Position numbers and translations under genes: made by a program
Notes under the pieces: generated by a model
The model's input: the letters and a program-made list of their open reading frames with translations, nothing else
Told to the model about the DNA's origin: nothing
Databases searched by the model: none
From: a virus
Virus record (IMG/VR): IMGVR_UViG_3300036880_000015
Span: 1 to 64,000 of that record
DNA length: 64,000 nt
Reading direction: 5' to 3' (one strand)
Shown: positions 27,934 to 40,575 of the stretch, one piece after another
How the letters are laid out: every line of letters starts with the position of its first letter
Numbering within the stretch: the first letter of the stretch is position 1

Positions 27934-28130
27934 CACTCCGCCGCCTTCGCCACATACTCCACCGCCCGCTCGCGCCAATCCGCGCAATGCGCAATCCGAG
28001 CGTGTTCCTCGTTATCCTTCGCCACAAGTTTCTCCGCTGTCGCCTGCTTCAACTTGAAGCCCGACGTCTGCAACGGCCGCCAAGTCCGCCCCGCGTCTTC
28101 GCTCCGCTCGATAATCCAGATGGGGGTCAT
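27933..28130 (-). CDS. hypothetical small protein
   Basis: 65 residues, WIIERSEDAGRTWRPLQ start, then a helical Lys/Glu/Ala-rich end. Coupled to the methyltransferase upstream by a 4-base overlap. Not recognised. Confidence 0.6.
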   Translation of the reverse strand: MTPIWIIERSEDAGRTWRPLQTSGFKLKQATAEKLVAKDNEEHARIAHCADWRERAVEYVAKAAE

Positions 28131-29341
28131 TTAGCGATTACCTCCACTTGGTTGAACATCGGTGACTCTTCTCCGATGCGCTTCTGTGCGAGTCCTGCGT
28201 AAGTGGGATTCAGTTCAATCCCCACAAAGTCACGGTGATAGAGCAGCGCCACCACGCCGGTTGTTCCTGATCCGCAGAATGGATCGAGCACCACATCCCT
28301 CGGCTTGCTGCCAGCCAGAATGCACGGCTCAACCAGCGCTTCAGGGAAAGTGGCGAAGTGCGCCTCCTTATAAGGCTGAGTGGAGACGGTCCAAACGTCG
28401 CGCTTGTTACGTTGTGCGTAGGGTGTGTCAGCTATCTTCAGCAGTCCTGCGGCAGTGCGGTGCTCCTCAGTGTCACTGCGTTCATACTCAGTCACGGTTT
28501 TGTGAGTCTTATTGCCGGCGGTCCTATAGTTACGAGCTAAACCAGCATTGTTGCCACCACCCGGAACTTGCTCATATAAAGCCGTACCACACTCCCGGTC
28601 GCAGGTCGCCGGTTCCTTGATCGCCTCCGCGTCGTAGAAGTACCGCGCGCTCTTGGTCAGCAGGAACAGATATTCGTGGCTCTTGGTGCAGCGGTCGGTC
28701 ACGCTCTCCGGCATCGGATTCGGCTTGGCCCAAATGATGTCGCTGCGAAGCCACCACCCATCGGCGCGCAGCGCGAAGGCTAAGAGCCAGGGGATGCCTA
28801 CGAGGTCTTTCTCTTTCAGTCCAGTCGGGCACGGCTTGAATCCGGATCGAATACTGCCCTCACTTGTGTTCTGCTTCTCTCCCGCGTGCGCCGTCCCGGA
28901 TTGTCGCAATGAGTGCGCATAACTATCCCCGATATTCAGCCAAAGCGTTCCATCGTCGCGCAGTACACGTCGCACTTCCGAGAACACGGCTACCATCTTG
29001 GCCACGTACTCATCCGGCGTCTTCTCCAGTCCGAGTTGGGCATCGACGCGGGTTGCGCCGCACTTACCACAAATATCCTTGAAGGTTGCGCCTACGCCGG
29101 CGAGCAGTGTCCTAGTCTGAGCGTATCCGTCGGTATCGGCTGGCCTCCCGTCACCATGCGGCAATTGTCTGCGTTCGCCGTTGGCCCTGTGGTCACATCC
29201 CGCATCCCCGCCATCCCACTGGCCAGTTCCATAATCCCTCAAGCCCCAGTATGGCGGCGAAGTAATCGCGCACTGCACCGAGGCATCCGGCATCTCGCTC
29301 AGCCGGTCCCGCACGTCACCAATGTAGATCGTCGCTTTCAT
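28127..29341 (-). CDS. DNA methyltransferase, beta-type order (N4-cytosine or N6-adenine)
   Basis: 404 residues from ATG 29341, just after GGAAGG. The catalytic motif TSPPYW (27-32) comes first, and the cofactor motif DPFCGSGTTG lies near the C-terminus, the beta-class order. Between them is a target-recognition region with HSLRQSG and KPNPMPES, and a CGKCG zinc pair. No restriction partner is adjacent, so it is an orphan enzyme that likely protects phage DNA. Confidence 0.88.
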   Translation of the reverse strand: MKATIYIGDVRDRLSEMPDASVQCAITSPPYWGLRDYGTGQWDGGDAGCDHRANGERRQLPHGDGRPADTDGYAQTRTLLAGVGATFKDICGKCGATRVDAQLGLEKTPDEYVAKMVAVFSEVRRVLRDDGTLWLNIGDSYAHSLRQSGTAHAGEKQNTSEGSIRSGFKPCPTGLKEKDLVGIPWLLAFALRADGWWLRSDIIWAKPNPMPESVTDRCTKSHEYLFLLTKSARYFYDAEAIKEPATCDRECGTALYEQVPGGGNNAGLARNYRTAGNKTHKTVTEYERSDTEEHRTAAGLLKIADTPYAQRNKRDVWTVSTQPYKEAHFATFPEALVEPCILAGSKPRDVVLDPFCGSGTTGVVALLYHRDFVGIELNPTYAGLAQKRIGEESPMFNQVEVIAK

Positions 29342-29358
29342 CTCCACCTTCCGATTTC

Positions 29359-30271: not shown

Positions 30272-30672
30272 GCGCCATTTCTGCCATGCCGTAGCCTGTC
30301 CGAGTCCTCGCCGACGCGTCCTAGAGGCTCCCATGAGGCAGTTTTCGGCCGGATTCGGGCCTTTCGCGGCTGCGTGTGAAGATAGCCCGCCAGATTCCCG
30401 CGCGCCGTTTTCCCCTCTTTTCCGCCCTCGATAGACAACGTCCGGCGACAAGTTTACTTTCCATGCGTTCGAGGCCCGGAGAAGGCCAAACAGTACATAA
30501 GGCGTCGAAAACAGGGTAAAAGCGCCTTCATTATTTTCTGTGGATAACGCTGGAAGTGTGCGTCTTTATTGATTAAAAAATAGTGCTTGACATCATGCTT
30601 GCTATTAGAGTATAGGTTATTCAGTGACCTGTGGCAGGGGTCATAGAGGCTCTACCAGAGCCGGGAGCTAAG
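30272..30672. other. divergent control region, candidate replication origin
   Basis: No gene. Holds a perfect DnaA box, TTATCCACA on the minus strand (30539-30547), next to an AT-rich tract (30558-30618) and the rightward promoter. The transcribed leader has two hairpins, TGACC/GGTCA (30625-30643) and GGCTC/GAGCC (30648-30662). A single DnaA box is suggestive, not proof. Confidence 0.4.
30587..30616 (+). promoter_or_regulatory. promoter of the long rightward operon
   Basis: -35 TTGACA (30587-30592), 18-base spacer, -10 TATAGG (30611-30616). The leader of about 50 bases ends in GGGAG before ATG 30673. Confidence 0.6.
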
Positions 30673-30951
30673 ATGGAAGCCAACAGCCACAATACGCGCG
30701 GAGAGTGCCAGAGGTGCGGACGGGTTCGCTCGTTCGTGCTGGCCTCCGCGTTCAATGCTGACGGTTCGTTCCGGTTTCTGTGCTCATCCTGTGACCGCGT
30801 GGAGAGCTGGCAGAATCAGCGCCGTCTATTTGAAGGCATTGCGCCGATCTTCATTGGTGAGCCTGAGCCGGTAGAAGAAGTGTCGTTGATACTGGATGGG
30901 TTCGAGCCGGTATCCAATCAACTGAGTTTGTTTGTGGAGGTTTACCAGTGA
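30673..30951 (+). CDS. zinc-ribbon protein, first gene of operon
   Basis: 92 residues from MEANSHN, with GGGAG upstream (GTG 30631 lies in the hairpin leader and is unlikely). CQRCGR and CSSCDR form a four-cysteine ribbon (residues about 12-42). The rest is acidic and hydrophobic. Ends in a GTGA overlap. Confidence 0.65.
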   Translation: MEANSHNTRGECQRCGRVRSFVLASAFNADGSFRFLCSSCDRVESWQNQRRLFEGIAPIFIGEPEPVEEVSLILDGFEPVSNQLSLFVEVYQ

Positions 30952-31235
30952 CGGGCCCTGAAGTTCACAATCTGACCACCGATGAAGTATTCATCTACGA
31001 CAGCAGCCTAACGCCCGCTCAAGCTGTCCGGAACGCCTACGCTGCAACGATAAGCGGCAACAGTTACGAGTGGGCCCAGCGTTTCCCATTGTCGATGGTA
31101 CGCGAGGCGCGCTATGGTTCGCGCGTGGTTTACTCGCTGGGAGATTTCTCCTGCGTCACCATCGACCGGGAGTATTACAGCGTCAACAATACCACCCGCA
31201 CCGGGCCTGATGGATGTTTCCCAGCCTTGAGCTAA
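30948..31235 (+). CDS. hypothetical protein
   Basis: 95 residues from GTG 30948. The pattern TPAQAVRNAYA then YGSRVVYSLGDFS is common in small phage proteins of actinobacterial and acidobacterial viruses. Function unknown. Confidence 0.6.
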   Translation: MTGPEVHNLTTDEVFIYDSSLTPAQAVRNAYAATISGNSYEWAQRFPLSMVREARYGSRVVYSLGDFSCVTIDREYYSVNNTTRTGPDGCFPALS

Positions 31236-31266
31236 ACGCATCACAACACCTGGGAGAGAGGACAAA

Positions 31267-31506
31267 ATGAAGGCAATCCGCACAGCTTCGATCTTGCACA
31301 ACGAATCTGATTATCCTGAGAGCATCCACTTTGGCGAGCGCGTGAAGCTCAATTTGCGCAAAATGGCAGATGGATGCTACGAATTTTGCATCGGCGAAAA
31401 CGACGAGACCACTGGTGTATCAGGCTCCACAGTCGCAGATGCTTGTCGTGCAGCACATCGCGCCTGGAATACCTCTCATGTATGGGATTTTCGCGCTGCC
31501 TGGTAG
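31267..31506 (+). CDS. hypothetical small protein
   Basis: 79 residues with GGAGAGAGG upstream. Beta-like start, then TGVSGSTVADACRAAHRAW helix. Not recognised. Confidence 0.6.
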   Translation: MKAIRTASILHNESDYPESIHFGERVKLNLRKMADGCYEFCIGENDETTGVSGSTVADACRAAHRAWNTSHVWDFRAAW

Positions 31507-31527
31507 CCTAACCGCCGTCAAACGATC

Positions 31528-31629
31528 ATGCGCTTGGCCACCGGCGCCAAGGTTCCGCAAGCCAAGTGTGGGATTCATGCCGTTATGGATGCAGTGTCCG
31601 CGCTGGACTCCACCATTTCACGTTACTGA
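31528..31629 (+). CDS. possible 33-residue peptide
   Basis: A short frame (MRLATGAKVPQAKCGIHA) in the 156-base gap between two genes. No ribosome site, so support is weak. Confidence 0.2.
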   Translation: MRLATGAKVPQAKCGIHAVMDAVSALDSTISRY

Positions 31630-31662
31630 ACACCGGCCACCAGCCGGAGAGGAGCTAAACCA

Positions 31663-31905
31663 ATGAAAACGTCCTTCACATACGAAGAGATCGAGCGCCG
31701 CTATCCGTTGACCATCGACGCGATGAAGTGGGCCGCCATTCTCTCTACCACCGAGGCCGCGGATTGTGTCCGAGCCATAGGCGAACGGCGCGGGAGCGGT
31801 GAAGCTGTCCAGCATTTCGGCGGGCCTGTTGCCGTATTGCGGGCCGCGCTCCGTTGCCGCCGCTTCGCTCACCAGTTGCGCCAGTCACGGAAGGCCGCCC
31901 AATGA
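31663..31905 (+). CDS. hypothetical small protein
   Basis: 80 residues with GGAGAGGAG upstream. N-terminus helical (YEEIERRYPLTIDAMKWAA), C-terminus Arg-rich. ATGA overlap with the next gene. Not recognised. Confidence 0.6.
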   Translation: MKTSFTYEEIERRYPLTIDAMKWAAILSTTEAADCVRAIGERRGSGEAVQHFGGPVAVLRAALRCRRFAHQLRQSRKAAQ

Positions 31906-32183
31906 TCGCCCCTCACCCATTCACACCCACGGTCTTTCAAGGCGCGCCGCTCCTCCGCTGTGACCTGTGCGCGCGCTTCGCCGGAGATCCGCTGCACGTC
32001 CTGGCCCTTCCCGGTTGCGAGACCTCCGACACAGACCGCGAGACCGCGCGCCAGTTCCAGCAGGCCGCCGACCTCACCGCAGCTATGCGCCAGCCGCGCG
32101 CCAGTATTTCGGCCAAGGCTGGCAAGATGGAACGATACGCGCCGCTCTTCTTTGGGACCGGCGACAACCCGATTTTGTTTTGA
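31902..32183 (+). CDS. hypothetical protein with Cys pair
   Basis: 93 residues from MIAPHPFTP (ATGA overlap). CDLCARFAGDPLH could be a zinc site. Ends in DRETARQFQQAADLTAAMRQ helix and a short tail. Not recognised. Confidence 0.55.
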   Translation: MIAPHPFTPTVFQGAPLLRCDLCARFAGDPLHVLALPGCETSDTDRETARQFQQAADLTAAMRQPRASISAKAGKMERYAPLFFGTGDNPILF

Positions 32184-32203
32184 CGCGCCCGGAGGCGCAA
32201 ACA

Positions 32204-32389
32204 ATGAACCCTTACGGCTATATCGCAATCTTGGCCCTGATCGGCGCCGCCATCTTCTATGCCTTCTACCGGATGGACCGGAAGGAAAAGGATAACGCCT
32301 ATTGGCGCGCAATCGCCACCGAGCAGGCAAGACGCGACAAACTAGCAGCCGAGCGGTACAACCGCGCGGTAATGAACCGGGAAGACTGA
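32204..32389 (+). CDS. 61-residue membrane protein
   Basis: GGAGGCGC precedes ATG 32204. One membrane helix at residues about 4-22 and a charged helical tail (EKDNAYWRAIATEQARRDK). Unknown role. Confidence 0.6.
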   Translation: MNPYGYIAILALIGAAIFYAFYRMDRKEKDNAYWRAIATEQARRDKLAAERYNRAVMNRED

Positions 32390-32427
32390 ACCGGAGCCGG
32401 CCGCAACCGGCAGAAAGTAGACCACTC

Positions 32428-32625
32428 GTGACCATCCAAGAGAACGCCTGGCAGGGAAACAACGAAGAGGCCGACGCGCAATTCTGCGACCGGCTCACGA
32501 ACATTCTAGGCACGGAGCCGAACGTCTCAATTCTTCCACCCGAACCCAAAAACGAGTTTACAACCTTTGACCCGCTAGGCCTGGCCGTTATCGTCCTGGC
32601 CGTGCTTGTTCTCCTCTACCTCTAA
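32428..32625 (+). CDS. small C-terminally anchored membrane protein
   Basis: 65 residues from GTG 32428. Soluble N-terminal part and a C-terminal membrane helix (GLAVIVLAVLVLLYL) that ends the protein. Such tail-anchored peptides are rare in phage early operons. Confidence 0.5.
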   Translation: MTIQENAWQGNNEEADAQFCDRLTNILGTEPNVSILPPEPKNEFTTFDPLGLAVIVLAVLVLLYL

Positions 32626-32675
32626 CCGTTGCCGGAGCGTAACCGGGCCGCGACCAGCGGCAGGAGCTTTATAAA

Positions 32676-33617
32676 ATGGCTACTCATTGCCTGAATTGCG
32701 ACACAACAGCCACCGCATTCTGTGAAGAAAATCACGATCTCGGAGAGCCTGAGACCATCGACACAACACCAGAACCGGCGGCAGTTCCGGCCACTTGGAA
32801 CGGTGAACCCGTGAGCGACAATGAATCTTTTGTGGATTCCCTCGACGATCCTGACGAAACCGACGCCAAGCGGAAAGACCCGCCGGCGAAGGTTCCGGAG
32901 TCCGCCCCAGCGCCCACGGTTGATCTTTTTCAGAACCGCATCGACGCCGAAGAGCTCGAAGCGAGAACGGCACGGCTCAAGGCGGCCAACGCCGCAAGGG
33001 ACACGCGCGAGGCTGCCGCGGCACCGTTTGAAGCCCTGGCCGAGCAGATGAAGGCGGGCGTCAAGGTTGCCGTGGTTCCGCAGTTGTTCCCCACTCCGCC
33101 GGAGCTGGCCGCACGCATGGCAGGCGAAGCCGACATTCAGCCGAGCAGCCGCATACTTGAGCCCAGCGCAGGGACGGGAAACCTTATCCGCGCCATTGCC
33201 AACGATACGACCGGCTTTGATTGCTTGCGCGAGATTACAGCCGTCGAGTACAATCACGCGCTAGTGGCCCATCTTATCGAACAGCGCGAGCGGACACTGT
33301 ACGCCAACGAAAACAACTTCAAGATCGTTTGCGGAGACTTCATGGAGCAAAACGACAACTTGGGAATGTTTGACCGCATCGTAATGAATCCACCATTTCA
33401 GAACGGCGCCGACATCAAGCACATCCAGCACGCGGCGAAGTTTCTAGCCGACGGCGGCCGGCTCGTCGCACTCTGCGCCAACGGTCCCAGGCAGCGCGAG
33501 ATCCTGAAGCCCATAGCCGAAGAGTCCGGCGGATGGTGGGAAGACTTGCCGGCGGGAACCTTTAGCGAGCAGGGAACCGGGGTAAATGTAGCCCTGTTGC
33601 TCATCTGCAACGGATAG
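32676..33617 (+). CDS. N6-adenine-type DNA methyltransferase
   Basis: 313 residues with AGGAGC upstream. An N-terminal Cys pair (CLNC) and acidic linker lead to a helical region, then QLFPTPPELAARMA, motif I EPSAGTGN (162-169), an acidic EYN, and catalytic NPPF (238-241). This is the gamma-type order seen in N6-adenine enzymes. No restriction enzyme is adjacent. Confidence 0.85.
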   Translation: MATHCLNCDTTATAFCEENHDLGEPETIDTTPEPAAVPATWNGEPVSDNESFVDSLDDPDETDAKRKDPPAKVPESAPAPTVDLFQNRIDAEELEARTARLKAANAARDTREAAAAPFEALAEQMKAGVKVAVVPQLFPTPPELAARMAGEADIQPSSRILEPSAGTGNLIRAIANDTTGFDCLREITAVEYNHALVAHLIEQRERTLYANENNFKIVCGDFMEQNDNLGMFDRIVMNPPFQNGADIKHIQHAAKFLADGGRLVALCANGPRQREILKPIAEESGGWWEDLPAGTFSEQGTGVNVALLLICNG

Positions 33618-33700
33618 CCAGTCCACGCATAGACCGAACCCAAGCCCGAGGCCGGCGGCGAGCAGTACCGGCCAAGTCCACCAGGACAGGAGCAAAGCAG

Positions 33701-34009
33701 ATGGAACCCGAAGTCACTTTAATCAGAGTCCGTGACAATGACGGCAAGCCGTGGGATTCTTCATTTGTCGAAGTGAACGGAATCAAGCGCGGAATCATCC
33801 GGCAAGACAACAGCGGAGGATGGGCAGCCGAAATGATGGGCTGCTACAAGACAACGAACGCCGCTAACGTCTTCGGATACTTCGCCACTCAACAGCGCGC
33901 CATAGACGCCATTGTAAAAGCAACGGCCAACTATCCGGCACACATCGTCTATCCGCCGCAAGACTTCAACGTCCGCGCCAACTGGAACGCCCTGGGGGTA
34001 TCGGCTTGA
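33701..34009 (+). CDS. hypothetical protein
   Basis: 102 residues with GGAGCAAAGCAG upstream. Beta-rich start (EVTLIRVRDNDGKPWDSS). TTGA overlap with the next gene. The 83 bases before it carry one copy of an 18-base repeat also found at 37547. Not recognised. Confidence 0.6.
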   Translation: MEPEVTLIRVRDNDGKPWDSSFVEVNGIKRGIIRQDNSGGWAAEMMGCYKTTNAANVFGYFATQQRAIDAIVKATANYPAHIVYPPQDFNVRANWNALGVSA

Positions 34010-34257
34010 TCTTCCCAACGATCCACCTCAACGGCACCAGCAAACAACAGTTACTCGATGACTATTGCGACATCCGGCAAGCCCTCGACGCCGCAATGGA
34101 AAAGATGATCGAGAACGGACCCAACGCCCGCGACTATTACCCGGCAGGCGACCAGGCATTCCGGCAGGCGATCAAGGAACACCACGACCGCATCGAACAG
34201 ATTCACCGGGTACGGTTCGATATTGAGACAATCGCCGAACACATTGCAGACGCTTAA
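34006..34257 (+). CDS. hypothetical small helical protein
   Basis: 83 residues from TTG 34006, overlapping the previous stop as TTGA. Helical (KQQLLDDYCDIRQALDAAMEK). The pattern is common in phages, function unknown. Confidence 0.6.
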   Translation: MIFPTIHLNGTSKQQLLDDYCDIRQALDAAMEKMIENGPNARDYYPAGDQAFRQAIKEHHDRIEQIHRVRFDIETIAEHIADA

Positions 34258-34271
34258 CGGAAGGACCGCCA

Positions 34272-34439
34272 GTGAGAGACAATAGCCCATATCGTGAGCC
34301 GGGAATCGACGCCAACAGGACACCGCGCGTCGAAATTTACGACGATAGCGCCTGCGCCGCTTGCGGCAGCACAGAGAATCTTGGAGTTGTACGCGACGAC
34401 ATTCTTTGTACTGCCTGTGAGCGGAAATATGAAGACTAA
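34272..34439 (+). CDS. 55-residue zinc-ribbon protein
   Basis: From GTG 34272, with AAGGA upstream. Two Cys pairs 18 residues apart (CAACGS and CTAC) form a ribbon at the C-terminus. Below usual length cutoffs, but spacing and composition fit the operon. Confidence 0.6.
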   Translation: MRDNSPYREPGIDANRTPRVEIYDDSACAACGSTENLGVVRDDILCTACERKYED

Positions 34440-34473
34440 CGCACCAGCAACCCGCAAGGAAAGGAATCAAACC

Positions 34474-34650
34474 GTGAAAGTTGAAATCAAAGGAAATGAC
34501 CTCGTTATCACGATGCCGATGGGCACGCCCACGCGCAGCGCCAGCGGTAAGACTCTTGTAGTCGCCAGCAGCCGCGGCAACGTCACGACCAATTGCATGA
34601 TCGACGGCAAGCCGGTAACGGTCGGCCTTAACGCCTACATCAAAGCGTAG
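34474..34650 (+). CDS. 58-residue beta protein
   Basis: From GTG 34474 with GGAAAGGA upstream; ATG 34429, which overlaps the prior stop, is the alternative. VEIKGNDLVITMPMG, then SGKTLVVASSRGNV and a short end: an all-beta fold like small single-stranded-binding or swapped-hairpin proteins. Not assigned. Confidence 0.55.
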   Translation: MKVEIKGNDLVITMPMGTPTRSASGKTLVVASSRGNVTTNCMIDGKPVTVGLNAYIKA

Positions 34651-34657
34651 GCCCAGC

Positions 34658-34673
34658 CCGGCAGCAATGCCGG
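34658..34673 (+). other. hairpin with GCAA tetraloop
   Basis: CCGGCA, GCAA loop, TGCCGG: a six-pair stem 7 bases after a stop codon. No T-run follows, so it is probably an mRNA stability or processing element, not a terminator. 34674-34754 holds no gene. Confidence 0.4.
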
Positions 34674-34754
34674 CAAGTTCTCAAGAGTCCACCTCCAGGC
34701 GAACAGCCACGGCGAGAACGGCACAGCCAACGGACCAGAAAGGAAAGTAATCAA

Positions 34755-35459
34755 ATGCGCACCCTGCTAGAAATTGCAAACAGCCCATGGGACCAGGTGC
34801 AAACCTGTGAACGGCTCGCCAATGGAGTATGGTGGGTTACGACATCCAGCCACGGCGGCCTGATGGTGGACGTATCCACCGCAACCGAAGAGTTGAGCGC
34901 GCCAGCTCGCCAGCACGGCATGAAGTGGGGCCGGTTCATATGCTACGAGGAAGATTGCCAGTGCGCGATTGCCTTCTTCGAGCGCCCGGACTGGTACGCC
35001 ACATTCAAGCGCCGCCCGCTCACCGAAGCCGACACCGCCAGCACGCTGAAAACCTGCAAAGATTGGGAATGGCGCTATTACGAGGCCCGCACCCACACGA
35101 TCCTTGCGCCCGGCGAGTCGTACTGCAAGGATGAATTTACCTTCAGCCAGGACCACGCCGACGACCTGATTGTGGTTTCGGCCACCAGCGGCAACAGTTG
35201 GGAGCCACCGTTGCCGGCCGGCATGGTCAAGGTGACAGCCGTCAAAGGTGGACGCAATAAGCACGGCGGATACACCGGCGAGCGCGAGTTTCTTGTACCG
35301 GCGGCAGAGTATCGCGGGACCGATCCGGGGTGCTATCCGTGGAAATTTGCTTTTATTGTTGACCCGGCGCGCCACCAGGAGATTATCAAGGCGGCGCTTG
35401 CGCCCATCGTCGAGCAGCCGCAAAGTTCGCGCCTGTTGCTGCCCATGGCCATTGCCTGA
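34755..35459 (+). CDS. DUF7007-like protein
   Basis: 234 residues with GAAAGGAAAG upstream. The opening SPWDQVQTCERLANGVWWVTTSSHGG and later KWGRFICYEEDCQCAIAFFE match the layout of the phage family DUF7007. A beta-rich second half follows. Function unknown. Confidence 0.6.
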   Translation: MRTLLEIANSPWDQVQTCERLANGVWWVTTSSHGGLMVDVSTATEELSAPARQHGMKWGRFICYEEDCQCAIAFFERPDWYATFKRRPLTEADTASTLKTCKDWEWRYYEARTHTILAPGESYCKDEFTFSQDHADDLIVVSATSGNSWEPPLPAGMVKVTAVKGGRNKHGGYTGEREFLVPAAEYRGTDPGCYPWKFAFIVDPARHQEIIKAALAPIVEQPQSSRLLLPMAIA

Positions 35460-35517
35460 ACCCGCGGGCGGCCACGTCGCCGCCTGCACTTACCCGCAAC
35501 CACTGCGAAAGGAATTT

Positions 35518-36027
35518 ATGAAAATCGAAGAAATCTACGCAACACCCATCGACGGAGACGGGTGGAGACTGTTGCCGAATGGTAACAAACTGATGATCGG
35601 CGCGAACGTGTCAGCGCCTTACGGCATTGATATTGCCAGCATCGGCGAGGGGGCCAGCATCGGCGAGGGGGCCAGAATCGGCGCGTGGGCCAGCATCGGC
35701 GCGGAGGCCAGCATCGGCGCGTGGGCCAGAATCGGCGCGTGGGCCAGCATCGGCGAGAGGGCCAGCATCGGCGACAAAGTTCAATGGCTCAAATCTCCTC
35801 TTGCCGTACAAGGAACACGTCACATCGTTATCAACTGCGCCCCAGGCCAGATCGGTATCGGGTGTAGATTCTTCACCTTTGACGAGTTTTTGAAGGCGAC
35901 ACCCAAAGAGCGCACAGCCTACCAAGTAAGCAATGGCTACACGCCCGAAGAATGCGCCGAGTACATCAAGATTGTAAAATTTGTCATCGCCAACGGAGTA
36001 CCGGCAGAAAGCGAGGCCACCGCATGA
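35518..36027 (+). CDS. protein with eight hexapeptide repeats (left-handed beta helix)
   Basis: 169 residues with AAAGGAAT upstream. Residues 40-87 are eight units of the form A-(S/R)-I-G-x-x, the repeat of left-handed beta helices in acyltransferases (LbetaH). No acyltransferase catalytic His is seen, and the array is unusually regular. A soluble domain follows (TFDEFLKATPKERTAY). ATGA overlap with the next gene. Confidence 0.75.
   Translation: MKIEEIYATPIDGDGWRLLPNGNKLMIGANVSAPYGIDIASIGEGASIGEGARIGAWASIGAEASIGAWARIGAWASIGERASIGDKVQWLKSPLAVQGTRHIVINCAPGQIGIGCRFFTFDEFLKATPKERTAYQVSNGYTPEECAEYIKIVKFVIANGVPAESEATA
35635..35778 (+). repeat. eight tandem 18-base coding repeats
   Basis: Unit GCCAGCATCGGCGAGGGG repeated eight times with changes mainly in the last six bases and one C to A. 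Frame is kept because the unit is a multiple of three. Copy number is probably variable between relatives. Confidence 0.9.
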
Positions 36028-36335
36028 AGTATCTTGTCCGTTGGGAGATTGACTCAGACGCCGCGACACCGCTCGAAGCCGCAAGAGAGGCGCGCGCGGC
36101 ACAACTCAGGCCCAACACCACGGCGACCGTCTTCGACGTGTACGAACCAGATGCGCCCTTCACCGAGGAAGACAACCAATTCCGCCGTGGACTGCATGGA
36201 CCCAAGGCAACCCGCATCGACCTGCAAGAGCACGAAGAGGAAATCTTCACCTGCCGCGGATGTGGCCGCGAAGAGAGCGTATGCAGCGCGGACCCATGCC
36301 TAGGCGTGATTGCAGATCGTGAGGGAAGAAATTGA
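36024..36335 (+). CDS. hypothetical protein with zinc ribbon
   Basis: 103 residues from MKYLVRWEI (ATGA overlap). N-terminal beta-alpha part (EIDSDAATPLEAAREARAAQ) is a common small phage domain, followed by CRGCGRE at residue about 79 and two more Cys. Confidence 0.6.
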   Translation: MKYLVRWEIDSDAATPLEAAREARAAQLRPNTTATVFDVYEPDAPFTEEDNQFRRGLHGPKATRIDLQEHEEEIFTCRGCGREESVCSADPCLGVIADREGRN

Positions 36336-36550
36336 GATCCCGCCGCCTGCCATTCCCTGCCGATCCGCGCTGGATCGAAGCCCGCTTCACCAGCCATTGC
36401 GCCCGCTGCCCGCGTATCATCAAACCGGGAGAGAGTGCCTACTATTTTCCCCAATCAAAAACCATCTTCTGTGACTCAGAAGATTGCGGCAAGCACGAAG
36501 CGCGACTGGTCGAGGCCGCGCTATTCGATGAAAGGATGTGCGCGGCATGA
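36332..36550 (+). CDS. zinc-ribbon protein
   Basis: 72 residues from TTG 36332 (TTGA overlap). CARCPRIIKPGESAYYFP, then CDSEDCGKHEA: a treble-clef or PARP-type finger-like pattern (C..C..C..C/H). Common in phage small-gene regions. Confidence 0.65.
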   Translation: MRSRRLPFPADPRWIEARFTSHCARCPRIIKPGESAYYFPQSKTIFCDSEDCGKHEARLVEAALFDERMCAA

Positions 36551-36777
36551 AACACATTGCGGTTTGTTGCGACTGGCGACACGGGCGCATCGGGTTTGTA
36601 ATCACCGCCCCAACTCCTGACGACTGCGAGCGAGTCGCCGACTTACTGGAAAACCGGCTGGGCTACACGGGGACCGGATGCGATACTCTCATTGAAGCCG
36701 AGCGCACAGCTAAGAGATTGAAAAACTCGAACTGGGGGACGAATCCAGTTTACGGAAAGGTTCACGGCAAATCATGA
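36547..36777 (+). CDS. hypothetical small protein
   Basis: 76 residues from MKHIAVCCDW (ATGA overlap). ferredoxin-like alpha/beta layout (FVITAPTPDDCERVADLLE). Not recognised. Confidence 0.6.
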   Translation: MKHIAVCCDWRHGRIGFVITAPTPDDCERVADLLENRLGYTGTGCDTLIEAERTAKRLKNSNWGTNPVYGKVHGKS

Positions 36778-37031
36778 GGAAAGCCGGTTTCCACCTGAAG
36801 CACGGTTACGTGGTTATGGCGATTCCCGACAGCGGCCTGTTCTTGAAAGACGGCCGCCTTGTCTCGGGCCACGAGACCGACATGAAGTTTGACGAGCTCA
36901 TCCTGTACTCACGGGACGAAGACGCCGCCAGGCTCGTCGATCAGTTACGGACGCAATGGGCGGACCCGGACAATAACGGCCACCAGTGGAACTTTCACGT
37001 CCTGCCCGTCTTAGTTCACGAACGGCTGTAA
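36774..37031 (+). CDS. hypothetical small protein
   Basis: 85 residues, ATGA overlap. GYVVMAIPDSGLFLKDGRLV resembles a short beta domain, followed by EDAARLVDQLRTQW helix. Not recognised. Confidence 0.6.
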   Translation: MRKAGFHLKHGYVVMAIPDSGLFLKDGRLVSGHETDMKFDELILYSRDEDAARLVDQLRTQWADPDNNGHQWNFHVLPVLVHERL

Positions 37032-37050
37032 GATACACGGAGGGGAATTT

Positions 37051-37224
37051 ATGAACTTGCAGGTTGATCACGAAGTTGTGCCGGCGCCGTCCATACTCTG
37101 CCGCCACTGCGCCCAGCCCATCGAACAGACCGGGGACGGCGACTGGATACACGCCAGCGGATTTTATTCTTGCTTCGATGCTGGGTGCTGGAAACAAGCC
37201 ACACCGAAAGAGGCCACCGAATGA
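37051..37224 (+). CDS. 57-residue zinc-finger protein
   Basis: GGAGGGG precedes ATG 37051 and the stop overlaps the next ATG as ATGA. CRHCAQPIEQTGDGDWIH, then CFDAGCW: a short treble-clef-like finger (CxxC...H...C). Below usual cutoffs, but the ribosome site is strong. Confidence 0.65.
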   Translation: MNLQVDHEVVPAPSILCRHCAQPIEQTGDGDWIHASGFYSCFDAGCWKQATPKEATE

Positions 37225-37562
37225 CGATCCAACCCGTACTCTTCGCCCACCTCATCGACGACTGCGCCAGTGTGCGCGACACCCCGCTTCAGGTCTCCGT
37301 CTCCGCGGCGCTGCTCGAAAGCGACTGGCTGGCCGGCGACACGATGGTTGCGGCCAATGCCTTCCATGAAGCCCTGAGGGCGTTCGTGCAGCCAGCGCAA
37401 CTCCAGAAGGCGCTGATCGCCGTCCTCGACGTTCACACTACCCACCGCGCCCGGCTGGCCACTGTGCTGACGGCCGCCGCTCACCGCATAGGCCAGGCCG
37501 ATTGGCTGGATGAACTGGCCGAGATGAAAGACGACCGTGACAACCCGCCAGTCCACGCATAG
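37221..37562 (+). CDS. hypothetical helical protein
   Basis: 113 residues from MTIQPVLF (ATGA overlap). Almost all helical and Ala/Leu-rich. Its last codons contain the second copy of an 18-base repeat. Not recognised. Confidence 0.55.
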   Translation: MTIQPVLFAHLIDDCASVRDTPLQVSVSAALLESDWLAGDTMVAANAFHEALRAFVQPAQLQKALIAVLDVHTTHRARLATVLTAAAHRIGQADWLDELAEMKDDRDNPPVHA

Positions 37563-37639
37563 ACTGATTGACAAGGACGCGCCGAAAGTGTACGCTTGCA
37601 AGTAACCAGACCCGCGACCAGAGCGGACAAAGGAGTGGA

Positions 37640-37831
37640 ATGAGCAACAATCGTAAAACAGAGACGTGTCCGGCCTGTGAGAGTGGATGGCTACGCCGCC
37701 AGGTTCCAAGTCCGACAAGCCCCGGCAAGATGATCACCGTTACCCGTGTCTGCCAGTATTGCGCTGGGTTAGGCAAGCGTGAGCCGCTACCGGATGCCTT
37801 GCGGGAGAGTCTTGAGAGGCAACAAGGTTGA
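37640..37831 (+). CDS. small zinc-binding protein
   Basis: 63 residues from MSNNRKTE with AAGGAGTGGA upstream. CPACESGWLRR, then CQYCAGLGKRE: two Cys pairs as in DnaJ-type zinc units. 37832-37944 is a leader without a gene. Confidence 0.65.
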   Translation: MSNNRKTETCPACESGWLRRQVPSPTSPGKMITVTRVCQYCAGLGKREPLPDALRESLERQQG

Positions 37832-37944
37832 CATTCGCCGGCCAGCTCCGGCCGCGAATCGCAGTGTTGGGCCTGGTAATCCAACACCAGCCGGGCTCGC
37901 GTTAGAAGCCCGGCACGAGTTTGGAAAGGAAAGGAAAGGAACCA

Positions 37945-38061
37945 ATGAAAGCGACCGAGTTGAAGTTTCCGAAGATCAGGATGGACATGAAGCGCAGCCT
38001 TCGCCGGCGCGCGCAAGCCAGAACCCGCCAAGCGGCGCGGAGAGCGAAAGGGTGCAGGTGA
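37945..38061 (+). CDS. 38-residue Arg-rich peptide
   Basis: GGAAAGGAAAGGA precedes ATG 37945. Sequence is Arg/Lys-rich (MKRSLRRRAQARTRQAARRA). The stop overlaps the next start as GTGA. Could bind RNA or DNA. Confidence 0.55.
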   Translation: MKATELKFPKIRMDMKRSLRRRAQARTRQAARRAKGCR

Positions 38062-38270
38062 GCGAAGGAACGAGAGAGCGCTGTTTGGATTGTGATCGGT
38101 GGCCGTGTATCTGCGCCATTCTGATAGATGAAGACGAGGATGCCGTGGATGCTGTGCTTTGTGAAGAGTGCGGCGATGATGTTTGTGAAGGTTGCGGAAG
38201 ATGCCCTGATTGCGATGGGTGCGACTGCGATGAAGACGAGGAAGATGAGGATTACTACGATGACGAGTAA
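38058..38270 (+). CDS. cysteine-rich protein with polyacidic tail
   Basis: 70 residues from GTG 38058. Twelve Cys, mostly as CxxC (CLDC, CIC, CEEC, CEGC, CPDC, CDC), followed by a tail of Asp, Glu and Tyr only. It is coupled to the basic peptide upstream, so an oppositely charged pair is made. Probably binds metal. No family recognised. Confidence 0.6.
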   Translation: MSEGTRERCLDCDRWPCICAILIDEDEDAVDAVLCEECGDDVCEGCGRCPDCDGCDCDEDEEDEDYYDDE

Positions 38271-38280
38271 AGGAGAAATC

Positions 38281-38775
38281 TTGAACTCACCCATGCTACC
38301 GATCGTTTGCAGTTTGCCGCATTGCGGGAAGACATGGACGCCGACAAACAACTGGCGCGCCATCACCGTTGACGACGAAGAGACTATCACGATCTACAAG
38401 TGGCCAGTGGCTGAGGCTCAAGGCTTACTCTCGACTGCCCGGCTTGTTTGCGGCCCAGGCCATGCCCAGATGTGCGTCAGTGACCTGTTGATGCCGGGAC
38501 CGTCGAAGGATCGGGAATCGACGCTGGTACTGAAGCCACCGTTGACGCGGGAAGGGACGGCGCCACCGCCAGAAGTTGCTCTCTCCCCCGCCGATGGCGA
38601 ATGTCTCGGTCCCAGTACATCAGATCCTCTTTTGTCAGCAGCAGCCGCTCCGGAACCCGGTACGTCCGCGTCTCAACAATCTTCCCCTCAACCTCATCCA
38701 CAACCATCGAGCCCGTCTCCAGAAGGCCCAGGTCCAGTAGCAGATTCAGCCGGCGAGCCTGCCGCTTTTCGTTGA
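38281..38775 (+). CDS. hypothetical protein with Cys/His start, overlapping antisense gene
   Basis: 164 residues from TTG 38281 (AAAGGAG upstream). The first 65 residues look real (CSLPHCGKTW, then CGPGHAQMC). The Ser/Pro-rich rest coincides with the coding strand of the convergent gene 38477-38923 and may be only a read-through frame. Confidence 0.5.
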   Translation: MNSPMLPIVCSLPHCGKTWTPTNNWRAITVDDEETITIYKWPVAEAQGLLSTARLVCGPGHAQMCVSDLLMPGPSKDRESTLVLKPPLTREGTAPPPEVALSPADGECLGPSTSDPLLSAAAAPEPGTSASQQSSPQPHPQPSSPSPEGPGPVADSAGEPAAFR

Positions 38776-38923
38776 AGCCGTAGAGTTCCACCAGCCGGTG
38801 CAGGGAGATTGCCCGGAAGTGCGACAGTTCAAAGTCGCAGAGCATTTGCAGGAACATCCGGAGCGCCACCTCGGGCATGTAGTCCGGATTCGATAGTTTG
38901 CGATAGGCAACCAAGTTCAGCAT
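38477..38923 (-). CDS. winged-helix-like protein, antisense within the rightward operon
   Basis: 148 residues. The helical core SHFRAISLHRLVELYGFNEKRQARRLNLLLDLGLLE followed by a beta hairpin resembles a winged helix (seen as FNEKRQARRLNLLLDLGLLE). The C-terminus is low complexity. No ribosome site; a TATATC box lies 8 bases before ATG 38923, so this may be a further leaderless gene. Only minus-strand gene between 30.6 and 40.5 kb. Confidence 0.6.
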   Translation of the reverse strand: MLNLVAYRKLSNPDYMPEVALRMFLQMLCDFELSHFRAISLHRLVELYGFNEKRQARRLNLLLDLGLLETGSMVVDEVEGKIVETRTYRVPERLLLTKEDLMYWDRDIRHRRGREQLLAVAPSLPASTVASVPASIPDPSTVPASTGH

Positions 38924-38942
38924 GAAGAAAGGATATACCCAA

Positions 38943-39221
38943 ATGGCAAGCCAAAATTGTAAACCTTTTGAGAAACGCCGTTTGCTTATAGGCGACGATC
39001 CTCACGGCTTCAATCTCCGTCGTCATCCCCGCAATGCTCCTGCGGTACGAGCGGCTGGGCGGCATGAGGAAAAGTGCAAGATGGACGGATTTACACAAGA
39101 CTTAATGGACGATACTCCGGACGGGGATGTGTGCTGCGGGTTTTGCTGCTCGGCTTGCGATTGGATACGGGAGTTCGCGTACATCGGGAAGCATCGGCGC
39201 GGAAAGGATACACTCAGATGA
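38943..39221 (+). CDS. small cysteine-rich protein
   Basis: 92 residues from ATG 38943 (AAAGGATAT upstream); a start at 39080 giving 46 residues is also possible and its sequence looks more natural. The end CCGFCCSACDWIREF could hold a metal. ATGA overlap with the next gene. Confidence 0.5.
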   Translation: MASQNCKPFEKRRLLIGDDPHGFNLRRHPRNAPAVRAAGRHEEKCKMDGFTQDLMDDTPDGDVCCGFCCSACDWIREFAYIGKHRRGKDTLR

Positions 39222-39517
39222 GCGAAGCATTAAAACCGTGCTGGTGCGGGGCGAAAGCGTACTTGAACACGATTGTCCGCGAAGGTTGGCAGGGAAGGTC
39301 TGGGGTATATGTGTCCTGCCAACGTAAATCATGCGCTTTGCATGGCCGCGTCTATTCGACTCGGATTAAAGCCGTCGCCGCATGGAACACGCGCCCGGTC
39401 GAAGATGCGCTGGCCGGTGCGCTGAAATTCGTGCAGGAGCACTGTCAACTCTACGGCGCAGCGGACGCGGCACGGGAGAAGATCGACGCCGCGCTCAGAA
39501 AGGCTGGCGTGCTGTGA
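39218..39517 (+). CDS. Lar-like restriction-alleviation protein
   Basis: 99 residues from MSEALKPCWCG (ATGA overlap). Matches the Lar family layout: LKPCWCGAKA at the start, a second Cys pair CQRKSC, and STRIKAVAAWNTRP. Lar of Rac prophage relieves host type I restriction by stimulating modification. A C-terminal helix extends past the usual 60-70 residue length. Confidence 0.7.
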   Translation: MSEALKPCWCGAKAYLNTIVREGWQGRSGVYVSCQRKSCALHGRVYSTRIKAVAAWNTRPVEDALAGALKFVQEHCQLYGAADAAREKIDAALRKAGVL

Positions 39518-40281
39518 CCCACGAACCCAACTTTAACCTGATCGATGCCTTAGTCCATCATCGCGACGTGCCCTACTTCCCTTGGTCCGGAGTCTCTGAG
39601 GACCGCTGGGCAGCGCAAGACGCCGTGGTGACCCTCTACGCAGCCCTGCAGCTCCCCAAGCCCCGCATGGCCTGGTGCCCGTCGCCCGCGGCCATGTTCC
39701 GCGCGAGCCGGATGCTGCGCACAATCCAGCACGGGACCGCCTACCAGATGGTTCAAAGCCTCGTGCCCATGGACGGTGACCGAATCGAGCGCGAGGCCCG
39801 CGTGTCACTGCTGGCCGCCATGATCGATCAGGATGTGGTCACGCAATCCGGCGGCCTGCTGATCGGCATGATTCAAGGGGTCTTCGGAAAAAATGTTTAC
39901 AACATCGAGGCGCTTTGCGACCTCAAGAACCGGATTCAGTTCAAAGACCAAGACCCATCGGGCAGTGTTGCGCCTGCGCGCTTCTCCGAGCAATGCCTCT
40001 GGCCCGTCTTCTATCCCGGCTTCCATGTACCGCGGCTTGATCCTCTCCAGCGCCAGGCGCTCATCATCATGCCTTTCGCGAAGCTTTGCTGGCTCTGCCG
40101 GCCGCCGCTGTTCGTGAAGACGGACGAGTTTGGCTACCTGCACTGCGCAACCGGCCCGGCCGCTGAGTGGTCCGACGGGTTCCAAGTGTTCTGCGACCGC
40201 ACGCCTCCCGAGGAGCGCGAGAAGTTGAAGGCCGCGGAGATGCTGGCGCTGCCGGCGGGGGAGGGCGATCATGCCGAATAA
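39514..40281 (+). CDS. DUF6745-like protein
   Basis: 255 residues from GTG 39514 (GTGA overlap). The end, CRPPLFVKTDEFGYLHCATGPAAEWSDGF, matches the repeat-like unit of DUF6745 proteins. The middle has Trp/Tyr-rich helices. Function unknown. Confidence 0.6.
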   Translation: MTHEPNFNLIDALVHHRDVPYFPWSGVSEDRWAAQDAVVTLYAALQLPKPRMAWCPSPAAMFRASRMLRTIQHGTAYQMVQSLVPMDGDRIEREARVSLLAAMIDQDVVTQSGGLLIGMIQGVFGKNVYNIEALCDLKNRIQFKDQDPSGSVAPARFSEQCLWPVFYPGFHVPRLDPLQRQALIIMPFAKLCWLCRPPLFVKTDEFGYLHCATGPAAEWSDGFQVFCDRTPPEEREKLKAAEMLALPAGEGDHAE

Positions 40282-40486
40282 TTTGCGGCCATGCCCCTTT
40301 TGCGGCAATTCTGCAATGTGGGCGGCATCGCCATTTGAGGGAGACTTCGAGATCCAATGCTCATATCAAGACTGCGAGGTGTTGATTATCTGCGGAGGAA
40401 AGACTGAAGCTCAAGCCGCGGCCAAGTGGAACCATCGCTGCCCCGATCCATGGAAGGCACCGCCGCCTTGCGAGGTGCTTCTATGA
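40271..40486 (+). CDS. second Lar-like protein
   Basis: 71 residues. LRPCPFCGNSAMW, a second Cys (CSYQDCEV), and KTEAQAAAKWNHR match the Lar family closely and at normal length. A paralogue of the gene 1 kb upstream. Overlaps both neighbours (11 and 4 bases). Confidence 0.75.
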   Translation: MPNNLRPCPFCGNSAMWAASPFEGDFEIQCSYQDCEVLIICGGKTEAQAAAKWNHRCPDPWKAPPPCEVLL

Positions 40487-40575
40487 CCTGGCCCCAGATC
40501 GTCGCCCTGCCGTGCGCTATGCTGGTTGTCGCTTTCATACGTGTGGGGATCGAACTGTTGAGGCGGAAACCCTAG
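40483..40575 (+). CDS. 30-residue membrane peptide
   Basis: ATGA overlap with the Lar-like gene. A single membrane helix (IVALPCAMLVVAFIRVGIEL) and basic end (RRKP). Its TAG shares bases with the TAG of the convergent gene (CTAG at 40572-40575). Confidence 0.55.
   Translation: MTWPQIVALPCAMLVVAFIRVGIELLRRKP

Follow-up and report, generated by a model that had tools for sequence, protein, structure and literature searches.

What does a tailed phage do with a run of some thirty small, closely packed genes, many of them encoding proteins with paired cysteines, on the strand opposite to its structural genes? This question is raised by the gene cluster at positions 30673-40575 of virus record IMGVR_UViG_3300036880_000015. 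The record is linear and comprises 64,872 bases, most of which are covered by the stretch of 64,000 nucleotides that was analyzed (the window; positions refer to it, and features lie on the plus strand unless stated otherwise). A first-pass annotation had described the region as a single operon (30587-40575) of about thirty tiny, mostly zinc-binding genes behind one promoter, forming a candidate counter-defence or host-takeover island. We consider the cluster, with a probability of roughly 55%, to be a hypervariable accessory region in a tailed phage that carries an integrase gene and probably infects Acidobacteriota, with a cargo that serves partly in counter-restriction.

The cluster contains 29 plus-strand open reading frames (ORFs) without internal stops, which have a median length of 83 amino acids (aa) and cover 90% of the bases. 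Twelve four-base overlaps (ATGA, GTGA or TTGA) couple neighboring genes, and a Shine-Dalgarno (SD)-like sequence is present upstream of almost every ORF. In a codon model trained on the other genes of the contig, the plus frame ranked first or second of the six for 28 of the 29 ORFs; weak scores were obtained for ORFs 36332, 37640, 37945, 38058, and 38943 (named by their first position). Because several short ORFs score weakly, the realistic gene number is 25-29. AT skew is positive only in this region (about +0.2 at 32-38 kb vs. about -0.1 elsewhere). The packing and the coupled starts described previously are thereby confirmed. The term tiny applies to the 24 ORFs of at most 113 aa and not to the other five (313, 255, 234, 171, and 169 aa). 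CxxC motifs occur in 12 cluster proteins, close to the eleven or so counted before, whereas 2000 residue shuffles gave a mean of 3.9 and a maximum of 10, and the cysteine content is 3.6% in the cluster compared to 1.6% in the minus-strand genes. The enrichment of zinc-type proteins is therefore real, but "mostly" zinc-binding is too strong, as plausible cysteine sets are found in about 10-12 of the 29.

Transcription of the cluster likely starts from a putative host-type promoter, TTGACA (30588-30593) followed 18 nt on by TATAGG, which was spotted by eye and is well conserved in the related contig G001 described below. A single operon is not supported, because a coding-like ORF on the minus strand (38477-38923, 148 aa) interrupts the co-directional genes. 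Of the six frames across this stretch, that of the ORF scores highest in the codon model (+0.26 outside the overlap, and +0.12). Searches of phages, of plasmids, and of 299 genomes from the class of the Acidobacteria metagenome-assembled genome (MAG) discussed below yielded no relative of it. Over about 300 bases it overlaps, tail to tail, the plus-strand ORF 38260-38775 (171 aa), whose codon score is +0.18 in the first half and -0.17 in the second half, antisense to the minus-strand gene. The plus-strand genes from 38943 onward may form a second transcription unit.

The gene content of the cluster was compared with that of related viral contigs. The 26.8 kb contig G001, with a terminase 76% identical to that of the window, covers the beginning of the cluster. 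It keeps the leader with the putative promoter (30500-30672, 80-100% identical in 40-nt steps) and eight of the genes, which differ mainly by synonymous changes: the nonsynonymous rate (pN) is 0.03-0.25 and the synonymous rate (pS) 0.29-0.76. The eight genes common to both contigs are thus under purifying selection; the dN/dS of 0.00 printed for the first gene is an artefact of saturated synonymous sites. In G001 the methyltransferase gene of the window (32676-33617) is swapped for an unrelated gene of 419 aa, genes 31267, 33701, and 35518 are missing, and a gene for an A1S_2505-family phage protein is a newcomer. The G001 counterpart of the DUF7007 gene (34755-35459) is a fusion between the start of a 36332-type gene and the rear of DUF7007 (locus L006, 10023-10484). 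Gene 33701 reads as an insertion in the window or a loss in G001, because the downstream gene 34006 has a coupled TTG start in the window and, in G001, an ATG with its own SD sequence directly behind the preceding boundary element.

The other relatives add to this picture. G012 is 98% identical to the window over 30276-30668. G011, a more distant relative whose terminase is 78% identical, lacks the cluster genes save for a 23-residue zinc module, although the end of its contig may fall within the region. In the matching part of this 70 kb relative (L029, 1-10800), ParB-like, sigma-factor-like, and transposase-like genes stand in place of the small-gene cluster. G004, with a terminase 96% identical, is uninformative on the cluster since its contig ends on either side of the region. 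Among the viral contigs, no relatives of the methyltransferase or of the 255 aa protein were found, and separate searches with DUF7007 and with the 95 aa protein returned G001 and G012 only. Structural genes are mostly 64-99% identical across the relatives, most cluster genes are absent there or replaced, and conserved boundary sequences lie beside different genes; for these reasons the region is, as judged from these comparisons, hypervariable and mosaic, with genes apparently swapped by recombination.

Such turnover would also be expected if the cargo were neutral or linked to lysogeny (morons and recent ORFans), most genes having no selected role during infection and being exchanged by illegitimate recombination. 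The fast gene replacement between relatives, the weak codon scores of several ORFs, the integrase gene, and chimeric products, among them the G001 fusion of 36332 and DUF7007, all suit this explanation. We nevertheless regard it as quite unlikely, as pN is low relative to pS in all eight comparable genes, the leader is conserved, and recognizable anti-restriction families are present.

Exchange at gene boundaries is suggested by two GC-rich sequences. The element at 33618-33693 is identical to G001 at 75 of 76 bases although both flanking genes differ, and the element at 34652-34750 is 92% identical in G001, where it stands ahead of another gene. The latter contains CCGGCA-GCAA-TGCCGG, which in G001 is CCGGCC-GCAA-GGCCGG, a compensatory change within a hairpin, and GC-rich hairpins ahead of the SD sequence are found in several gaps. 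Also the element upstream of gene 31663, ACACCGGCCACCAGCCGGAGAGGAG, precedes another gene in G001. The boundary sequences might therefore act as an independent system for regulation or recombination that insulates or exchanges gene cassettes. We consider this very improbable: by folding energy the gaps were no more stable than minus-strand gaps (p = 0.84) or coding pieces (p = 0.11), which led us to reject a structured cassette system; tracts nearly identical to G001 also lie inside genes (31973-32053), the pattern that patchy homologous exchange would leave; Rfam gave no match; and when the viral contigs were scanned for the 18-nt core, it turned up, beyond the window, in G001 only. A search for a recurrent repeat at gene starts gave only weak families of two or three copies. 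With a negative hairpin test and no recurrent repeat, these sequences were assigned neither to mobile cassettes of the T4 type nor to the (extended) start-associated sequences (SAS-ESAS).

Three cluster genes, the methyltransferase gene and two Lar-type genes, resemble known anti-restriction tools in sequence. The predicted methyltransferase (32676-33617, 313 aa, with an N-terminal CLNC) is solitary, matches PF05175 (31 bits, cut-off 23) and PHROG methyltransferase families, and carries the motifs FPTPPEL (TPP) and VMNPPF (NPPF) in its translation. The fold profile together with N-terminal TP and NPP(Y/F) motifs, as defined previously (PMC5512222), places it among the gamma (EcoKI/TaqI-like) N6-adenine methyltransferases. 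It is not a methylase-helicase of the DarB type, having 313 aa and no helicase domain, and kinship with the plasmid-borne giants of that type was dropped (E 0.006 over 88 residues). A second DNA methyltransferase gene lies outside the cluster, just upstream on the minus strand (28127-29347), and matches phrog_67 and PADLOC type II methyltransferase profiles. The protein encoded at 40271-40486 (71 aa) resembles the Lar restriction alleviation family, with 31.2 bits for PF14354 (cut-off 28.6), 29.1 bits for TIGR03655, below the cut-off of 39.6, and a match to phrog_599. The Lar-like protein encoded at 39218-39517 (99 aa) also matches phrog_599 and reaches 25.4 bits for PF14354, below the cut-off. 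The known parts of the cluster are thus anti-restriction-like, as had been annotated, for the orphan methyltransferase and one Lar protein, but the second Lar-like protein falls short of the threshold.

The fourth gene, linked to restriction by association only, encodes a DUF7007 protein of 234 aa (34755-35459; PF22653, 78.2 bits, cut-off 27). Relatives with about 27-37% identity were found on 366 plasmid records, mostly from Rhizobiales, 253 of which are typed as conjugative. The surroundings (12 kb) were inspected for 13 plasmid loci from different genera: ArdC is present in nine, a giant DarB-like methylase-helicase in ten, and a ParB-domain protein in eleven, some of them as fragments. The identity of ArdC was confirmed by profile (PF08401, 147.6 bits; PF18818, 160.2 bits). 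On a Paracoccus plasmid, an ArdB-type antirestriction protein is encoded near DUF7007, and about 7 kb from DUF7007 lies a gene related to that of the phage methyltransferase. A D12 adenine methylase adjoins DUF7007 in Pseudarthrobacter, and a Shinella plasmid encodes, about 10 kb from DUF7007, a protein related to the phage 36024 protein. In an Acidobacteriota genome, a methyltransferase-type ORF of 337 aa begins inside the end of the DUF7007 gene (L048, 8451-10191, minus strand); this locus is set amid small ORFs resembling a mobile element. In Bradyrhizobium phage BDU-MI-1, DUF7007 sits in a series of small unnamed genes, an arrangement similar to that of the window.

No mention of DUF7007 was found in the literature searched. 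For its plasmid neighbors there are precedents: ArdC is a demonstrated anti-HsdRMS protein (PMC7213743), plasmid leading regions gather orphan methyltransferases and anti-defence genes (PMC11541004), and DarB-like methylase-helicases shield the DNA of phage P1 from type I restriction (PMC5512222). Based on these precedents and the plasmid association, we tentatively suggest that DUF7007 could be a DNA-establishment or anti-restriction factor. It is likewise possible, if rather doubtful, that DUF7007 represents an unrecognized anti-restriction or establishment family carried by phages of two phyla as well as by conjugative plasmids, on which it would act together with ArdC, ParB-domain proteins, and adenine methylases; in that case the cluster would be a pool of small zinc proteins with undescribed counter-defence functions.

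Several observations weigh against a counter-restriction cargo expressed as proposed. The link to restriction concerns only 4 of the 29 genes, and a PADLOC search with a subset of the proteins added methyltransferases only. The association of DUF7007 with ArdC could be hitch-hiking on a common plasmid backbone; because the plasmids largely share one backbone, the 13 loci are not independent counts. In the sole database phage with DUF7007, its close neighbors are all unnamed small ORFs. Structure predictions for DUF7007 and the 95 aa protein were poor (mean predicted local distance difference test scores of 35 and 45, respectively), too poor for a fold to support a function. Finally, a consensus promoter scan did not list the TTGACA/TATAGG pair at 30588, so that the single promoter of the first-pass annotation, although conserved in G001, stays putative. 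The remaining 25 genes had no informative match in the libraries searched and no link to defence. What stands of the proposed counter-defence or host-takeover island is an accessory region that includes candidate counter-restriction genes; a dedicated island is not supported, and guilt by association is weak here because the region shuffles so fast.

The size, packing, and unknown nature of the cluster genes resemble those of the host-takeover module of phage SPO1, some products of which attenuate host growth (PMC6873191), and cysteine-pair enrichment suits modules that bind proteins or nucleic acids. The cluster might accordingly be, like the SPO1 module, a general takeover module, whose small proteins mainly redirect or shut down host processes (transcription, division, proteolysis) and in which anti-restriction is a minor part. 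This is unlikely in our view: no cluster gene matches a known takeover protein, and gene content changes strongly in G001 though the phage is similar, a pattern more in keeping with an arms race than with a fixed shut-off programme.

For the preferred reading, a hypervariable accessory region with partly counter-restriction cargo, we propose the following course. Small genes would be gained, lost, and swapped singly or in small groups at gene boundaries, behind a conserved promoter and leader. After DNA entry, host RNA polymerase would transcribe the cluster, presumably early in infection. The solitary adenine methyltransferase would modify the phage DNA, the Lar-type proteins would relieve type I restriction by favoring modification, and DUF7007 might aid the same establishment step, as it apparently does on conjugative plasmids beside ArdC and DarB-like methylase-helicases. 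Our best guess for the remaining small zinc-type proteins is that each may bind a single host protein or nucleic acid.

Among the other genes of the cluster, the first (30673-30951, 92 aa) encodes a zinc-ribbon-like protein with two CxxC motifs and 61-63% aa identity to G001 (pN 0.25, pS 0.76). It is followed, with GTGA coupling, by the most conserved gene of the cluster (30948-31235, 95 aa; 94-99% aa identity in two relatives, dN/dS 0.08), by an ORF of 79 aa (31267-31506), and by one of 80 aa (31663-31905), to which a gene for a 93 aa protein with one CxxC is coupled by ATGA (31902-32183; dN/dS 0.22 vs. G001). Two proteins have a hydrophobic segment, at the N-terminus (32204-32389, 61 aa; dN/dS 0.36 vs. 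G001) or the C-terminus (32428-32625, 65 aa; dN/dS 0.47 vs. G001). Between the first boundary element and the TTGA-coupled gene 34006-34257 (83 aa; dN/dS 0.18) lies the ORF 33701-34009 (102 aa). A 55 aa protein with two CxxC motifs (34272-34439) and a 58 aa ORF (34474-34650; codon score 0.39) precede the second boundary element.

Behind DUF7007, a gene at 35518-36027 encodes a hexapeptide-repeat (left-handed beta-helix) protein of 169 aa (PF00132) and includes 7.8 copies of an 18-nt tandem repeat (35635-35774). The G001 gene that follows DUF7007 carries an unrelated repeat of 24 nt in 12.8 copies (8-residue unit AKMPDSVW; L006, 10568-10875), so that this one locus holds two different repeat-array genes. 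Next come a 103 aa protein with a C-terminal CxxC...C....C set (36024-36335, the protein with the Shinella relative), a 72 aa protein with a cysteine set (36332-36550), ORFs of 76 aa (36547-36777) and 85 aa (36774-37031), a 57 aa protein with a cysteine set (37051-37224), an ORF of 113 aa (37221-37562), a 63 aa protein with two CxxC motifs (37640-37831), a 38 aa ORF (37945-38061), and, GTGA-coupled, a 70 aa protein with six CxxC motifs and an acidic tail (38058-38270). Beyond the minus-strand ORF are a cysteine-rich 92 aa protein (38943-39221), whose start may be 39081, the 255 aa protein (39514-40281) with a weak C-terminal match to DUF6745 (PF20530, E 5e-5, below the cut-off), and an uncertain hydrophobic ORF of 30 aa (40483-40575).

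The contig represents only part of the genome of an integrase-bearing tailed phage. Its minus strand encodes terminase, portal, major head protein, and a DnaB-type helicase as well as a tyrosine integrase and an endolysin. G004 is permuted relative to the window and has about 28 kb between the genes nearest to the two ends of the window sequence, indicating that the viral record is incomplete. Portal and terminase are distant relatives of their counterparts in Tunturiibacter phages, and a search with the capsid protein gave a sole match, 94% identical, on a 7.2 kb phage contig binned in the Acidobacteria MAG. Because of this match, an Acidobacteriota host is likely, not proved, for this soil phage; no prophage carrying the terminase was found among 84,980 genomes. 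Phages of Acidobacteriota are still very poorly known. The region supplies a short candidate list for counter-restriction, and the link between DUF7007 and ArdC on plasmids gives a prediction that can be tested directly in tractable rhizobial systems. In other respects the cluster illustrates the ordinary upkeep of fast-changing small accessory genes by a phage.

Small-gene early regions occur in many phages, and together with host-takeover modules and T4-type hyperplastic regions they make this a type of region that is already known. In the hyperplastic regions of T4-type phages, reportedly described by Arbiol and colleagues in 2010, small genes are exchanged as mobile regulatory cassettes at short conserved intergenic sequences. 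The window resembles these in the exchange of small genes between relatives at such sequences, but a cassette of promoter plus stem-loop could not be demonstrated in it, and the test for hairpin enrichment was negative. Cluster K mycobacteriophages have start-associated sequences, a 13-bp repeat upstream of the start codons of small genes (PMC3203893); conserved sequences just 5' of small-gene starts are also seen in the window, but without a common 13-bp repeat. The host-takeover module of the Bacillus phage SPO1 comprises about 26 mostly small genes (PMC6873191). In both tailed phages, small genes lie close together in a single region, and for many of them no function is known. Some SPO1 products were shown to attenuate host growth, whereas the cluster of the window is known from its genes alone, shows strong shuffling between relatives, and is prominent in zinc-type proteins and anti-restriction families. 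Two of its small CxxC-type proteins match the Lar profile (PF14354/TIGR03655), one above the Pfam cut-off, but both are below the stricter NCBIfam cut-off and have a predicted activity only. With plasmid leading regions (PMC11541004) and the rhizobial ArdC/methylase-helicase/ParB segment, the cluster shares DUF7007, an orphan methyltransferase with small genes, and relatives of the 36024 protein (Shinella) and of the methyltransferase (Paracoccus). Unlike these segments, it has no ArdC, single-stranded DNA-binding protein, giant methylase-helicase, or relaxase, and its DNA arrives by phage entry instead of conjugation. DUF7007, as a candidate anti-restriction or establishment factor common to both, is the new lead that this comparison provides.

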